This document shows positions 5,384 to 33,647 of a stretch of DNA of 47,691 nucleotides, in pieces. The notes below the pieces were generated by a model. It was given only the letters and a program-made list of their open reading frames with translations, did not search any database and was not told the origin of the DNA. Source of the DNA: Alphaproteobacteria bacterium (lineage in GTDB: Bacteria; Pseudomonadota; Alphaproteobacteria; UBA6615); NCBI GenBank assembly GCA_028822385.1, contig JAPKDV010000005.1, positions 1 to 47,691 on the forward strand, written 5' to 3'. Numbering within the stretch: the stretch's first letter is position 1; each line of letters starts with the position of its first letter. The position numbers and the translations under genes were made by a program.

Positions 5384-6271
5384 ATGTCGAAGATTGGATT
5401 TATAGGACTGGGAAATATGGGCGGCCCGATGGTAGCCAACCTGATCACGGCTGGTCACGAGGTTAGCGCCTTTGACATATCGGCTGACGCCTTAGCTCGG
5501 GCGGTTGCTACTGGCGCAACGGCCGCAACGAATGGTGTCGATGCCGCGAAGAATGCGGAAATAGTGATCACCATGCTGCCCGCAGGCAAGCATGTGCGTT
5601 CTGTTTTTCTCGAAGACGATAAGGTCATGGATTTGGTCGCGAAGAATACGCTGCTGATCGATTGTTCGACCATCGATGTAGTCACCGCTCGAGCTGCGAT
5701 TGTCGAAGCCGAGCAGCGTGGCCTTGAGATGGTCGATGCACCTGTCTCCGGCGGCATTGGTGGAGCTCAAGCTGGTACGCTAACCTTTATGTGTGGCGGT
5801 ACGGAAGGCGCGTTCGCACGCGCGGAACCAATCCTGAAGGTAATGGGCAAGAATGTCTTTCACGCGGGTGATGCAGGGGCCGGGCAGGCCGTAAAGGTCT
5901 GCAATAATCTGATGCTAGCGATCCAGATGATATCGGTCTCTGAAGGGTTTGCCCTTGGTGACAAGCTTGGGCTCGACCGCCAAAAGCTGTTCGATATTGT
6001 TTCGACAGCGACCAGCCAGTGCTGGGCGATGACCAGCTACTGTCCCGTCCCGGGGCCGGTGCCGTCATCACCTGCCAACAATGATTATGCGGCCGGATTT
6101 ACCGTGGCGATGATGCTGAAGGATTTGCTGCTGGCACGTGAGGCATCGAGTGAAGTGGGCGCGACCACACCGCTCGGCTCACAGGCGACCGATATGTTCG
6201 CTGCGTTTGCGGCTGAGGGGAATGAGAATTTAGATTTTTCAGCGATCTTTAAGCAGATCGAAGACGCTTGA
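5384..6271 (+). CDS. mmsB: 3-hydroxyisobutyrate dehydrogenase
   Basis: MSKIGFIGLGNMGGPMVANL, DAPVSGGIGGAQAGTLTFMCGG, KVCNNLMLAI, and the SSGRCW-region equivalent SQCWAMTSYCPVPGPVPSSPANNDYAAGF typical of true MmsB. Confidence 0.92.
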   Translation: MSKIGFIGLGNMGGPMVANLITAGHEVSAFDISADALARAVATGATAATNGVDAAKNAEIVITMLPAGKHVRSVFLEDDKVMDLVAKNTLLIDCSTIDVVTARAAIVEAEQRGLEMVDAPVSGGIGGAQAGTLTFMCGGTEGAFARAEPILKVMGKNVFHAGDAGAGQAVKVCNNLMLAIQMISVSEGFALGDKLGLDRQKLFDIVSTATSQCWAMTSYCPVPGPVPSSPANNDYAAGFTVAMMLKDLLLAREASSEVGATTPLGSQATDMFAAFAAEGNENLDFSAIFKQIEDA

Positions 6272-8622: not shown

Positions 8623-9555
8623 TCAGCCCTGATTGATAACGAAAACAAGCTTGCCGCGCAGGTGACGCCCTTCGCTGATGCGGTGTGCCTCGGGTGCCTG
8701 CTCGAGAGAGAAGGTTTTCACTGGAGGTGCCTGAACAACACCAGATTGGAACAACGCCATGATGCGCTCGAGGTGCGGCCTGTCGCGACCGACTGCGGGA
8801 CGTAGGGAAATAACGTCATCACGTGGTGATGTCGGTGCCAGCATACCGGAAGCGATAGACGCAACGCGCCCGCCAGACTTAACCACTTCGAAGGATTTTG
8901 CATTGACCACTCCGCCTACGGTTTCGAACACGCAATCCACGTCGGAGAGTACTTCGGTGAAGTCTTTTTTTGTGTAGTCGATCACCCGATCGGCGCCAAG
9001 GCGCTGCACGTAGTCCACATTGCCGGTGCTGCAGGTGGTGATGACATGGGCGCCGATATGCTTGGCCAGTTCGATGGCAAAACCGGCAACGCCGCCTGCG
9101 CCACCCTGAATCAAGATAGTTTCACTGGATTTAAGCTGCAGGGTTTCTTCAACGGAAATTATAGCGGTCAGTCCGGTCAGGGTCAGACAAGCTGCCTCGA
9201 TGTGGCTTACACCGTCAGGCTTTTTCGCGATGATGGCAGCTTTCATTGAGATTTTTTCGGCATAGGTGCCCTCTTGGCCCCGGTCACAGGCGCCGAACAC
9301 GGCATCGCCGATGGTGAAGTCCGTCACTCCCTCGCCAAGCGCACTGATCACGCCAGAAAAATCACGTCCGAGGACATGAGGAAAACTCTCGAGTTCACCA
9401 TAGGTGCCACCTGCGCGCACCTTCGCATCTGCAGCGTTCACGGTGGCGGCGTGGATGTCGACAATTACTTCACCAGTACCAGCGACGGGATCGGGCAGAT
9501 CGCCGTATTTCTGAATATCCGCTCCGCCATGTTCTTCAATATATGAGGCTTTCAT
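8623..9555 (-). CDS. Zinc-type alcohol dehydrogenase/quinone oxidoreductase family (MDR), NADP-dependent
   Basis: HVLGRDFSGVISALGEGV, ETILIQGGAGGVAGFAIELAKHIGAHVITT. Confidence 0.9.
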   Translation of the reverse strand: MKASYIEEHGGADIQKYGDLPDPVAGTGEVIVDIHAATVNAADAKVRAGGTYGELESFPHVLGRDFSGVISALGEGVTDFTIGDAVFGACDRGQEGTYAEKISMKAAIIAKKPDGVSHIEAACLTLTGLTAIISVEETLQLKSSETILIQGGAGGVAGFAIELAKHIGAHVITTCSTGNVDYVQRLGADRVIDYTKKDFTEVLSDVDCVFETVGGVVNAKSFEVVKSGGRVASIASGMLAPTSPRDDVISLRPAVGRDRPHLERIMALFQSGVVQAPPVKTFSLEQAPEAHRISEGRHLRGKLVFVINQG

Positions 9556-12028: not shown

Positions 12029-13648
12029 ATGACCAATGCGAACGACAACCTTGCCGGGGCTGATGCGGACTTTGACGCCGTAGTGGTCGGAGCCGGATTC
12101 GCCGGTATGTACATGCTCTATCGCCTTCGCGAGCAGGGATTGCGTGTGCGTGTGTTGGAGGCTGGGGGCAGTGTTGGGGGAACCTGGTACTGGAACCGAT
12201 ATCCCGGTGCGCGGGTCGATACAGAGACGATGTTTTACTCCTATCAGTTCTCCAATGAGCTGCAGCAGGAGTGGGAGTGGACCCAGCGCTATCCCTCACA
12301 GGAGGAGCTGCACGCTTACGCGAAGCATGTCACCGATCGGTTCGAGCTGTGGCCAGACATTCAGTTCGATTCGCCAGTTGCGAAAGCCATATGGTCGGAG
12401 GAACAGCAATATTGGTCGGTCGAAACGGCGGATGGCGCACAGATAACCGCGTCATATTGTGTGATGGCGACAGGCTGTCTGTCTGCGGTTAACACGCCAA
12501 AATTCAAGGGCCTCGAAAATTTTTCCGGGGCGGTTCACCACACTGCACGGTGGCCAGAGGTAGGCGTCGATTTCACGGGACAGCACGTCGCTGTGATAGG
12601 AACGGGGTCTTCAGGAGTTCAGTCCATTCCGGTCTTTGCAGAGCAGGCGGCGCAGCTGACCGTGTTTCAGCGGACTGGAAATTATGTCATACCCGCTCAC
12701 AATCGCGGGCTCGACCCAGCCGAGGTGGCGGAGATCAAGGCGGATTATCCGGCGCTGCGGGCAAAGGCCAGTGCGTCATTCTCGGGAAATTACTTTCCTG
12801 TTGGCGGGCCTTCGGCGGTGGCCGTGTCGGAAGAGGAACGTAACCGCGAATATGAATCCCGCTGGGAAGTTGGCGGGCTTGCTTTTATGGCGGCCTATGC
12901 TGATTTCATGACCAGTGAGGAAGCCAACGAGACTGCATCCGAGTTCATTCGAAACAAAATTCGCGGGATCGTGAAGGATCCGGCTACAGCTGAATTGCTC
13001 GCGCCAAAACAGCTTTTTATGTGCAAGCGGTTATGCGTGGGGACGGATTATTACGAGACCTATAACCGTGACAATGTCTCGCTGGTTGATGTTAGTGAGG
13101 CTGCGATCGACGAAATTCTGCCCGAAGGTGTGCGGGTGGGGGAGACGGTCTACGAGGTGGATGCGATTGTTTTCGCCACGGGTTTTGATGCGATGACCGG
13201 GGCCCTTAAACGGATCGATATTCGGGGAGTGGAGAATGCTTCTCTGCGCGATCTCTGGGAGGATGGCCCGCGCGCCTATCTGGGATTGGCGATTTCGAAG
13301 TTTCCCAACATGTTCATGATCACCGGTCCGGGCAGTCCTTCGGTGCTGACCAATATGATTCCGTCGATAGAGCAGCATGTGGACTGGATCACCGATTGCC
13401 TTGCCGATATGCGGGCCCGGGGTGTTTCCCGAATTGAACCTGAAGCTGACGCTCAGGAAGAATGGGTTGCCCATGTGAACGAAATCGCTGATTTGTCGAT
13501 GCGATCAACCTGTTCATCCTGGTATCTCGGCTCCAATGTTGAGGGAAAAACGCGGGTTTTTATGCCCTACATCGGCGGTTTTCCGGCTTATGTGCGAAAA
13601 TGTGATGAGATTGCGAGTGCGGGCTATACCGGGTTTTCGTTCCGCTAA
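12029..13648 (+). CDS. Flavin-containing monooxygenase, type I Baeyer-Villiger monooxygenase (cyclohexanone monooxygenase-like)
   Basis: VVVGAGFAGMYMLYRL and VAVIGTGSSGVQS Rossmann motifs. FSGAVHHTARWP (12521-12556) matches the BVMO fingerprint FxGxxxHxxxW[P/D]. Confidence 0.93.
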   Translation: MTNANDNLAGADADFDAVVVGAGFAGMYMLYRLREQGLRVRVLEAGGSVGGTWYWNRYPGARVDTETMFYSYQFSNELQQEWEWTQRYPSQEELHAYAKHVTDRFELWPDIQFDSPVAKAIWSEEQQYWSVETADGAQITASYCVMATGCLSAVNTPKFKGLENFSGAVHHTARWPEVGVDFTGQHVAVIGTGSSGVQSIPVFAEQAAQLTVFQRTGNYVIPAHNRGLDPAEVAEIKADYPALRAKASASFSGNYFPVGGPSAVAVSEEERNREYESRWEVGGLAFMAAYADFMTSEEANETASEFIRNKIRGIVKDPATAELLAPKQLFMCKRLCVGTDYYETYNRDNVSLVDVSEAAIDEILPEGVRVGETVYEVDAIVFATGFDAMTGALKRIDIRGVENASLRDLWEDGPRAYLGLAISKFPNMFMITGPGSPSVLTNMIPSIEQHVDWITDCLADMRARGVSRIEPEADAQEEWVAHVNEIADLSMRSTCSSWYLGSNVEGKTRVFMPYIGGFPAYVRKCDEIASAGYTGFSFR

Positions 13649-13707: not shown

Positions 13708-13842
13708 ATGTGGCGATTTCTGGTCACGGATGATAATCCAAAAGGCTACAAGCTGGAAGACATTCTCAACGCGATCCGCAATGAGATGTTCGAACGCGCC
13801 ACCAAAATCATGGAAGATAAGCGGCCGAAGCTGTCGGCGTGA
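13708..13842 (+). CDS. Small hypothetical protein (44 aa), probably the N-terminal half of a frameshifted gene
   Basis: MWRFLVTDDNPKGYKLEDILNAIRNEMFERATKIMEDKRPKLSA. Below the ORF-track length cutoff; AGGACACC upstream. Confidence 0.5.
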   Translation: MWRFLVTDDNPKGYKLEDILNAIRNEMFERATKIMEDKRPKLSA

Positions 13843-13970
13843 TGAACAACAACATCAAGATCCTGGGTCACCTGGCGGAAAGCATAGCCCCGGCCGAGAA
13901 CAGCACCTCGGTGTTGGACAAGGCCTTCGGCCAGCATGATCCGGATGTGCCGAGGATCGGCAAGGCCTGA
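13842..13970 (+). CDS. Small hypothetical protein (42 aa), probably the C-terminal half of the same gene
   Basis: ATGA overlap with the preceding ORF: MNNNIKILGHLAESIAPAENSTSVLDKAFGQHDPDVPRIGKA. Confidence 0.45.
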   Translation: MNNNIKILGHLAESIAPAENSTSVLDKAFGQHDPDVPRIGKA

Positions 13971-15191
13971 CTAAACGTCAGTTGACACGCAGTTGCTGAT
14001 GCGGCGCGCATGTGCGAGCGCCAGTGTCCCAATTGCGGCGAGCATGGCAACAATCGCGAAGGCGTTGGAGACACTGCCCATCGCGTCGGCGAGCAAAGAC
14101 AGCGCTGCTGTTCCAAAAATAACACCGGCATAGACAGGGACGCCGATCCCACCCACAGCTGTGCCTGAATAGGCTGGTGGTGCGCGGTTCACTGTCGAAG
14201 TCATGAAGATGCCGGTCCAGCCATAGGCGCTGGCTGCGAAGGCTACGAAAAACACATAGATCGCCCAGATGGACCAGTCGGGTCCAATCCACATCATGCC
14301 GATGCCGCCCATGACATTGAGCACACCCATCATCAGCAGCAATTGGTCTCCGATTCCCCAACGGTCCGCGACCCAGCCCCAGACCAGGCGACCGGTGATA
14401 CCCGCCGCCTGAACAGCGGCTAGTACGGCCCCCGCTGCGATCAGGCTGAATTGCGCTTCAACGACAAGAATGGTGACGGCAAAGGTGGATATGGCGAGCT
14501 GAATGAAGGCGTAGTTGAAGCCCGCCACGCCCATCCAGCGCAATGTTGGAATGCGCCAGATCATTGTCATGGCGACAAAAGCCGTGGAATCCAGGCGAGC
14601 GTTCGGATCGCGTCGACTGTCCCAGCCCTTGCGCCAGGGTTGCAGTGCGCCAGCGAGGATAAAACAGCTTAGAGCGCCGATCAAAGGGGCGGCCTGCCAG
14701 CTAATGGTTTCGGTCATGGCTGGCGCGATGGCACCGGCCAGCATGCCGCCCAGCGGAATGCCGGTCTGTTTGATCGAATAGACGATATTGCGGCGGCGTT
14801 TGGGGGTGATCCGCATCAGGAGCTCGGCACCGGACGGATTCGTCATTCCGTAGCCGAATCCCATGAAAAGGGATCCGAAGGCGATCATCGCAACAGATGG
14901 AATCGCCATCATGGCCGCGCCCAAGCCGCATAGGACCAGACTGATCTGGCTTACGCGACCTGGACCCCAGCGTCGAAGCAGGAATCCGGACATGGCCGAT
15001 ATCAGGGAGGCACCGGTATAGACGAGCGCAATCTGCAATCCTATGAATTCGACGGGAACCCCAATATCAGCGGCAATGGCAGGTGCTGTCGCAGCGAGGG
15101 TGAGGCTTGAAAACGTCGAAACGGCCTGTACCAGCGTTACCGCAAACAGGACGAATCCGAGTGATGGTGATGGTGATGAATCGCTATTCAT
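13971..15191 (-). CDS. MFS transporter
   Basis: About 12 hydrophobic segments; GSLFMGFGYGMTNPSGAELLMRITPKRRRNIVYSIKQTGIPLGGMLAGAI. Start set at 15191 (MNSDSSPSPS), ATGA overlap with the upstream GFA gene. Confidence 0.88.
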   Translation of the reverse strand: MNSDSSPSPSLGFVLFAVTLVQAVSTFSSLTLAATAPAIAADIGVPVEFIGLQIALVYTGASLISAMSGFLLRRWGPGRVSQISLVLCGLGAAMMAIPSVAMIAFGSLFMGFGYGMTNPSGAELLMRITPKRRRNIVYSIKQTGIPLGGMLAGAIAPAMTETISWQAAPLIGALSCFILAGALQPWRKGWDSRRDPNARLDSTAFVAMTMIWRIPTLRWMGVAGFNYAFIQLAISTFAVTILVVEAQFSLIAAGAVLAAVQAAGITGRLVWGWVADRWGIGDQLLLMMGVLNVMGGIGMMWIGPDWSIWAIYVFFVAFAASAYGWTGIFMTSTVNRAPPAYSGTAVGGIGVPVYAGVIFGTAALSLLADAMGSVSNAFAIVAMLAAIGTLALAHARRISNCVSTDV

Positions 15192-15619
15192 TCTTGGGCA
15201 GATAGAAGAACCGCTGGGGTCCACGCAGCACGTCGCCGGGTGCGCTTCTCGGTTTCGTTTTCCTCAGTCCGGACCACCGGCACTGAAGGGCGCGTGAAGC
15301 TGGCATGATCGTCTAGGACATGCGCCATCACATTGGCATAGGCATCGTCGCCATCAGGCATATGCGCACCGATATAGACACCGCAGTTTCGGCAGATCAT
15401 GAAGTCCGAAATGCCAATGCCGATATGATATTTGTTGACCTGATCGGGATCTTTCATGGTGATCGTCAGGCTGCCGTCAGGGTCGGATATGGCTCCCGTG
15501 GCGTGCTTGATGCAAAAGGAGCACTGGCAGGAACGCGGTTCCATCTGGTCGGGTGTCCGTTTCGTTGTGAACGCGAACCGCAGGTTTCCGCAGTGGCATC
15601 CACCTTCATAGACCGTCAT
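15188..15619 (-). CDS. GFA family (glutathione-dependent formaldehyde-activating enzyme fold) protein
   Basis: MTVYEGGCHCGNLRFAF...SCQCSFCIKHATGA...MICRNCGVYIGA: GCHCG and CxxC zinc motifs. Start at 15619. Confidence 0.87.
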   Translation of the reverse strand: MTVYEGGCHCGNLRFAFTTKRTPDQMEPRSCQCSFCIKHATGAISDPDGSLTITMKDPDQVNKYHIGIGISDFMICRNCGVYIGAHMPDGDDAYANVMAHVLDDHASFTRPSVPVVRTEENETEKRTRRRAAWTPAVLLSAQE

Positions 15620-15759: not shown

Positions 15760-16764
15760 ATGACTGATTTGAAATCTGCGACGAAACGTCAGCTTGGTTC
15801 GAGCGATCTGAAATGCGCGCCGATTGGCCTGGGTTGCATGTCCTTTTCCGGCGTTTATGGCGCTGCAGACGATGACGAGACAGTGGATTTCGTCCACTAC
15901 GCAATCGATAGTGGGATCGATTTTCTTGATTCCTCTGACATGTATGGCTGGGGCCACAACGAAGACGTACTCGCACGTGCGCTCAAGGGCGGCTATCGCG
16001 ACAAAGTCGTGCTGGCGACGAAGTTTGGTCAGACCCAGGTTGAAGGCGGTGGCATGAGCGTCAACGGGCGTCCGGAATATGTGATCGAAGCTTGCGAGAA
16101 AAGCCTGCAGCGGCTTGGGGTCGAGGTTATCGACCTTTACTTTCAGCATCGTGTGGATCAGGAGGTCCCGATCGAGGATACGGTCGGCGCCATGGGTAAG
16201 CTTGTCGAGCAAGGCAAGGTGAAGGCCATTGGTATTTGTGAAGCCAAACCCGAGACCATCCGCAAAGCCCATGCTACCCATCCGTTGGCTGCTGTACAGA
16301 GCGAGTTTTCGCTGATGTATCGCGAAGAGGCCGAGCAAATTCGCGCGGCAACCAAAGAGCTTGGCATCACTTTCGTGGCTTATTCGCCGCTGGGACGTGG
16401 TATTCTGACTGACCCATTCATAAACGCCGAAACAGTTGGTGAGGATGATCCCCATTATCGCCATCCGCGTTTCAGCAAGGAAAATTTCCAGCAGAACCGT
16501 GAACTGATCCTGCGCGTTGCCGCATACGCAGCGAAGAAGGGTTGCACGCCAGCACAGCTGGCACTGGCTTGGCTGACTGGTCTGGGTGACGACATTGTCG
16601 CAATCCCGGGCACCAAACGCTCTGAGCGTCTCGATGAAAATGTGGCGGCACTCGGTGTCTCGCTGACCGCTGACGAGATTGCAGAAATCTCAGCGGCAGT
16701 GCCTGTTGGTGCAGCCGCCGGGGGGCGCTATCCCGATGCGCAGATGAAGAAGGTCTTTGTTTAA
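15760..16764 (+). CDS. Aldo/keto reductase
   Basis: KRQLGSSDLKCAPIGLGCMSFSGVYG, DSSDMYGWGHNEDVL, DLYFQHRVDQEVPIEDTVGAM, AIPGTKRSERLDEN. Confidence 0.95.
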   Translation: MTDLKSATKRQLGSSDLKCAPIGLGCMSFSGVYGAADDDETVDFVHYAIDSGIDFLDSSDMYGWGHNEDVLARALKGGYRDKVVLATKFGQTQVEGGGMSVNGRPEYVIEACEKSLQRLGVEVIDLYFQHRVDQEVPIEDTVGAMGKLVEQGKVKAIGICEAKPETIRKAHATHPLAAVQSEFSLMYREEAEQIRAATKELGITFVAYSPLGRGILTDPFINAETVGEDDPHYRHPRFSKENFQQNRELILRVAAYAAKKGCTPAQLALAWLTGLGDDIVAIPGTKRSERLDENVAALGVSLTADEIAEISAAVPVGAAAGGRYPDAQMKKVFV

Positions 16765-32603: not shown

Positions 32604-33647
32604 ATGGCATCCAGCTATACAATTTGTGTGTTGCCGGGAGACGGGATTGGCACGGAAGTGACCGATTGTGGGCGTCAGGTGTTGGATGCGCTGTCGGGCC
32701 GGGGCGGTCCGAGGTTCGACTACGATGTTCGTCCGGCGGGCTATTACACCTTTCTGGGAGTTGGTCATTCTCTGCCAGATGGCACGCTCGACGCGGCAAA
32801 AGCGGCGGATGCGGTGCTGGTCGGGGCAATGGATGTGGCTCAGATACCGCCCCACGGTGGAGACCCTCTCGGCGGGTTGCGAATTGGTCTTGAGGTGAGT
32901 GCGAGCGTGCGCCCGTCCCGCACGATTGATGGCATTGCGGGGCCGACTAATGACATTGATTGTGTTGTCGTGCGTGAAGTGACCGAAGGCCTCTACTCCC
33001 GCGATGAGTATATGGGTGATGACGACGCAGCCTATGCGGTTCGTGTTGTAACCCGGAAAGCCTCAACCAATACCGCGCGGATGGCGTTCGCGCAGGCCAT
33101 GGCGCGACAGGAAACCTACGGTCGGCCTTCGCTTGTCACAGCCGTACATAAGGTCGGCGTGCTTAAACTCAGCGACGGGTTGTTTCTGGAGGCCTGCGCT
33201 GACGTGGCGCGAGAATTCCCGGAGATCGCCTATGAAACCGCAAATATCGATACCTGTGCCATGGATATGGTCCGAAATCCTGGGCATTTCGATGTCATCC
33301 TGGCAACCAATGCATTCGGGGATATTCTCTCTGATGTGGCCGCCGGGCTTGCGGCGGGACTGGGGCTGGCGGCCTCGGCATGTATCGGGGAACGCTGGGC
33401 CTATTTCGAGCCGGTGCATGGCACGGCGCCCGATATCGCCGGAAAGGGTATTGCTAACCCCTGTGCGACCATTCTGACCGTCGCTATGATGCTGCGCTAT
33501 CTGGGTGAGGATGAGAGTGCGGATGTGGTGGAGACTGCGGTCTATGGGGTTCTTGAAGATGGAAAAATCCGTACGGGTGATCTTGGTGGAAACGCGACCA
33601 GCACTGAGATGACCGATGCGATTCTCTCGTCTTTGAAAATCAAATGA
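32604..33647 (+). CDS. Isocitrate/isopropylmalate dehydrogenase family (beta-decarboxylating) oxidoreductase
   Basis: VLPGDGIGTEV, VVREVTEGLYSRDEY, AVHKVGVLKLSDGLF, NAFGDILSDVAAGLAAGLGLAASACIG, FEPVHGTAPDIAGKGIANP. Confidence 0.9.
   Translation: MASSYTICVLPGDGIGTEVTDCGRQVLDALSGRGGPRFDYDVRPAGYYTFLGVGHSLPDGTLDAAKAADAVLVGAMDVAQIPPHGGDPLGGLRIGLEVSASVRPSRTIDGIAGPTNDIDCVVVREVTEGLYSRDEYMGDDDAAYAVRVVTRKASTNTARMAFAQAMARQETYGRPSLVTAVHKVGVLKLSDGLFLEACADVAREFPEIAYETANIDTCAMDMVRNPGHFDVILATNAFGDILSDVAAGLAAGLGLAASACIGERWAYFEPVHGTAPDIAGKGIANPCATILTVAMMLRYLGEDESADVVETAVYGVLEDGKIRTGDLGGNATSTEMTDAILSSLKIK

Follow-up and report, generated by a model that had tools for sequence, protein, structure and literature searches.

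Two overlapping micro-ORFs in an alphaproteobacterial contig and the single-gene family to which they correspond

The two micro-ORFs and their neighbours

The window, a stretch of 47,691 nucleotides, is the entire contig C98 of a 2.43 Mb draft genome (233 contigs, 89.8% complete) whose closest named relatives, Alphaproteobacteria from marine or aquatic settings, are uncultured and known as MAGs. Two micro-ORFs, ORF A (13708-13842, 44 aa) and ORF B (13842-13970, 42 aa), lie on its forward strand. Upstream, on the same strand, is an intact gene for a flavin-binding monooxygenase-like protein of the FMO/BVMO type (12029-13648), and downstream a convergent gene for an MFS transporter (13971-15224, reverse strand) abuts the stop codon at 13970; both neighbours were assigned by Pfam. 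The sequence-only reading had given the places, lengths and sequences of the two ORFs correctly, but the four-base ATGA overlap that it described is in fact TGATG at 13840-13844, in which the TGA of ORF A (13840-13842) shares its A with the ATG of ORF B (13842-13844). By eye, a plausible Shine-Dalgarno sequence, GAGGA, was found just 5' of the ORF A start codon at a suitable spacing, and none was seen before ORF B in the window sequence.

The first 40 codons of ORF A are in frame with intact relatives and align with them; four out-of-frame codons (KLSA) and the TGA follow. The remainder of the gene, codons 41-87 and a TGA stop, lies in a second forward frame that is open from 13821 and ends at 13970. 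ORF B is the ATG-started portion of this 3' half, its start codon being codon 46 of the intact gene.

Comparison with intact homologues

The sequence-only reading proposed that the two ORFs derive from a single small gene through deletion of one base, and named a homology search with the 87-aa fusion as the test. This search returned full-length, single-ORF homologues and so supports the proposal; the outcomes that had been named as counter-evidence, homologues divided at the same point or none at all, were not observed. The ten nearest, comprising five from the same genus (G001-G005) and five other members of the family, each consist of one uninterrupted ORF with 69-86% identity to the fusion. 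All five same-genus genomes matched at 83-86% identity (E 1e-43 to 1e-45) with no stop, indicating that the arrangement is not due to chance. A single uninterrupted ORF was also detected in 7 of 18 other genomes of the family, and further alphaproteobacterial members that were aligned were likewise unbroken. In the window genome itself, the only strong matches were the two halves. Both flanking genes have orthologues at all five same-genus loci, and G001 shows exactly the same direct contact between the small gene and the convergent transporter gene as the window does.

When the window was aligned with the ten relatives at the DNA level, the sequences matched base for base through the gene, and the sole gap was in the window, where the Pro40 codon lacks its third base (CC-, 13826-13827, forward strand). 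The junction codons are CGG CC- GAA GCT in the window and CGG CCC GAA GCG in G003, and CCN GAR is present in all ten relatives. Adding a G after 13827, as had been suggested, does restore the 87-aa fusion; a base added after 13826 yields an identical protein, and the lost base therefore cannot be named. Judged from these alignments, the locus is almost certainly a single gene, interrupted by a deletion of one base that none of its homologues shares. It resembles the frameshifted genes of draft bacterial genomes (young pseudogenes or assembly breaks), in which a single-base deletion splits an ORF that is intact in relatives, and differs from them in nothing notable; a chance start-stop overlap makes it mimic a coupled pair.

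The origin of this overlap can be read from the intact genes. In G001-G003 the junction is GTG ATG AAC AAC AAC (Val-Met-Asn-Asn-Asn) in frame, and GTGATG contains a TGA one base out of frame, so that the deletion produces a stop overlapping a pre-existing internal ATG. The codon at the ORF B start position is ATG in G001-G004 and ATC in G005. Because ORF B thus begins at what is, in most same-genus relatives, a methionine inside the protein (Met46), the overlap is incidental. On this comparison, ORF B is not a gene of its own, the overlap can be explained without any special architecture, and annotating the two micro-ORFs as a coupled gene pair would be mistaken.

The protein family in chromosomes, phages and plasmids

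Intact members of the family are 86-91 aa long. Their distribution is patchy: in an even sample of 240 genomes of the class Alphaproteobacteria, 23 (the window genome included) contained a member at E 1e-4 or better, as did 21 of the 194 high-quality genomes. Conserved features are the start F-L-x-(S/T)-x-x-N-P-x-G-x-K-L-E-D, the D-x-R-P-E-A sequence at the position of the break, an NN pair and a C-terminal PRIG. One distant genome carries a third family copy (L083, G052:C17) that ends early, without the PRIG tail. An AlphaFold2 model of the G003 orthologue, built from an alignment of eight sequences (mean pLDDT 81.5, pTM 0.59), predicts helices at residues 16-34 and 40-74 followed by a disordered tail.

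Searches of Pfam, NCBIfam, PADLOC and the PDB with the intact or fused protein gave no match, the PADLOC anti-phage defence profiles being negative up to E 1, and Foldseek found no significant fold match to the G003 model in the PDB. The Pfam hit to Ribosomal_L22 (E 0.17 and 0.032) was below the cut-off and was taken as chance, and the label "histidine kinase" on a Paenibacillus homologue was unsupported in Pfam. Against BFVD, the best two Foldseek matches (E ~1e-3) were uncharacterised proteins, one from an Aeromonas phage and the other from Vibrio phage vB_VpaM_MAR, which is also among the phages with a sequence match.

Protein searches detected homologues in five plasmid records and 23 phage records, mostly of Vibrio phages. 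The corresponding PHROGs family, phrog_26726, is of unknown function and includes vB_VpaM_MAR, VP585 and VHML ORF14 among its Vibrio phage members; the literature yielded nothing usable on VHML ORF14, nor on the assembly indel rates relevant to the interpretation below. The intact G003 orthologue matched phrog_26726 in hmmscan (E 1.5e-10, residues 4-86 to profile positions 61-144 of 196) and in hhalign (probability 99.6%, E 5.8e-24 over 85 columns), and this profile comparison confirms the homology. Like the chromosomal members, phrog_26726 has the L-x-(S/T)-x-x-N-P-x-G-x-K-L-E-(D) start, the NN motif and a C-terminal G-x-PRIG. The two differ in extent, since the profile spans 196 positions and several phage members are extended at the N or C terminus, whereas the chromosomal members are the domain alone (87-91 aa) and cover only the central 84-86 positions, the full profile not being matched. 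Short members of the phage or plasmid type also occur, in Paenibacillus (93 aa) and in Vibrio phage 1.049.O (92 aa). Members of the family occur on alphaproteobacterial chromosomes, in Vibrio phages and one Aeromonas phage, and on phage-like plasmids from Rhizobium and Paenibacillus (loci L084-L088 and L132-L135). On Rhizobium plasmid p7 the homologue adjoins a phage capsid gene; the Paenibacillus plasmid carries replication and nrd genes, and the three Vibrio plasmids carry phage genes.

The phage members are located in early, replication or head-gene regions, whereas the chromosomal members lie outside any phage-gene context in the window and the loci examined and have no common neighbours beyond the bacterial family of the window. 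Gene context was considered as a clue to function and set aside: the link to the monooxygenase holds only close to the window, and distant chromosomal members stand beside unrelated genes. Because contexts differ among homologues, they point to no role. From its size, fold and distribution, we tentatively predict that the intact protein, on the simplest view, is small, soluble and helical and works through binding to a partner, as an accessory factor often lacking in cells and sometimes carried by phages. The broken copy itself has few implications beyond its annotation. The family may matter more, being a small unnamed domain that has no entry in Pfam, NCBIfam or the PDB.

Decay, assembly error or a functional split

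The window almost certainly carries one gene for a small conserved 87-aa protein that is disrupted because codon 40 lacks one base. Starting at the native ATG, translation would give 40 correct codons and four wrong ones before the TGA stop, and the truncated product would be without its second predicted helix, its NN motif and its PRIG tail at the C terminus. Provided that the contig is correct, the window genome has lost the function of this gene.

The sequence-only reading had left four possibilities side by side: a pseudogene, a sequencing error, a recoding site and a genuine two-subunit split. The last of these would have ORF A and ORF B translated separately, coupled by TGATG, which is a known kind of reinitiation site, with the two peptides reassociating as a split helical hairpin; the break does lie near the predicted turn between the helices 16-34 and 40-74. 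We consider this very improbable, since none of the homologues compared is split, the TGATG stems from the in-frame GTG ATG already present in G001-G003, ORF B is not preceded by a visible Shine-Dalgarno sequence, and ORF B lacks the first residues of the second helix and carries a proline within it (L62P, see below). Were it true, the locus would represent an incipient two-subunit protein, with a split tolerated at a hairpin turn and reinitiation at TGATG from one mRNA. Recoding by programmed -1 frameshifting, which would restore the full-length protein, is equally hard to credit. Between 13821 and the stop at 13968 the -1 frame is uninterrupted, and a slip between 13821 and 13842 would produce the fusion; however, inspection by eye of the frame-0 codons in 13813-13842, which end in AAG CGG CCG AAG CTG TCG GCG TGA, revealed no X XXY YYZ slippery heptamer, and a shift is neither needed nor present in any relative.

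Of the other two possibilities, we favour, with moderate confidence, a real and recent mutation that has turned the gene into a young pseudogene. That one base was dropped in the contig while the gene is intact in the organism seems to us less likely, yet it has a substantial chance of being correct: the single-base break adjoins a GGCC/CCC run, the genome is an incomplete draft in many contigs, and the low dN/dS and good conservation of both halves would be explained without special timing. dN/dS was ~0.08-0.17 against same-genus relatives in both halves, and nucleotide and codon patterns still look constrained, implying that any loss is recent. Such values are expected either for a very young pseudogene or for an assembly error.

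Against an error in the contig stands the scarcity of frame breaks in this assembly. Genes of four contigs (191 kb) were compared with G001 (~29,000 codons) and G004 (~41,500 codons), a clean frame break being scored where two neighbouring collinear segments, each at least 72% identical, lie in different frames. In the window genome, the present gene was the only case away from contig ends; one further break lies no more than 100 bases from such an end. In the same comparison, four breaks were found in G001 and about five, in four genes, in G004, indicating that the window assembly is not especially prone to them; some of the relatives' own breaks may be assembly errors. The possible second break in the window genome is at L105 (G000:C107, 3-384). 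Those of the relatives are on G001:C17, G001:C15, G004:C1, G004:C2 and G004:C3 (loci L041-L047 and L118-L131), and the genes that they interrupt are intact in the window genome, for example the counterparts of 5384-6271, 8623-9555 and 32604-33647.

Two radical changes confined to the window copy would likewise be unexpected from one dropped base. At position 2, S or T is present in all 33 other members and W in the window (S2W); position 62, within the long predicted helix 40-74, is L in 30 of these members, I in two and K in one, but P in the window (L62P). Among the other same-genus copies, none carries a residue of its own at a column this well conserved. Window changes at columns invariant in the other sequences amounted to 2 of 86 in this gene versus 2 of 1008 in four neighbour genes, a fifth neighbour, for an aldo/keto reductase, having 11 of 334. 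In leave-one-out profile scoring, the window copy ranked last among the eleven closest members, at 133.6 bits versus 136.1-144.3. These two substitutions, the comparison with neighbour genes, the profile scores and the few frame breaks, each weak alone, favour real decay. The ratio of nonsynonymous to synonymous singletons was 3 to 1 in the window copy versus 16 to 45 in five neighbour genes, an excess that rests on four changes, with similar ratios in this gene in G002 and G009.

The aldo/keto reductase gene (window 15760-16764) is itself unusual in its 11 window-only changes at columns invariant in relatives. When the same count was made for each of the relatives in the six-taxon comparison, G001-G004 had 0-3 such changes and G005 had 16. 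Given that only six taxa were compared, the window gene is possibly a paralogue.
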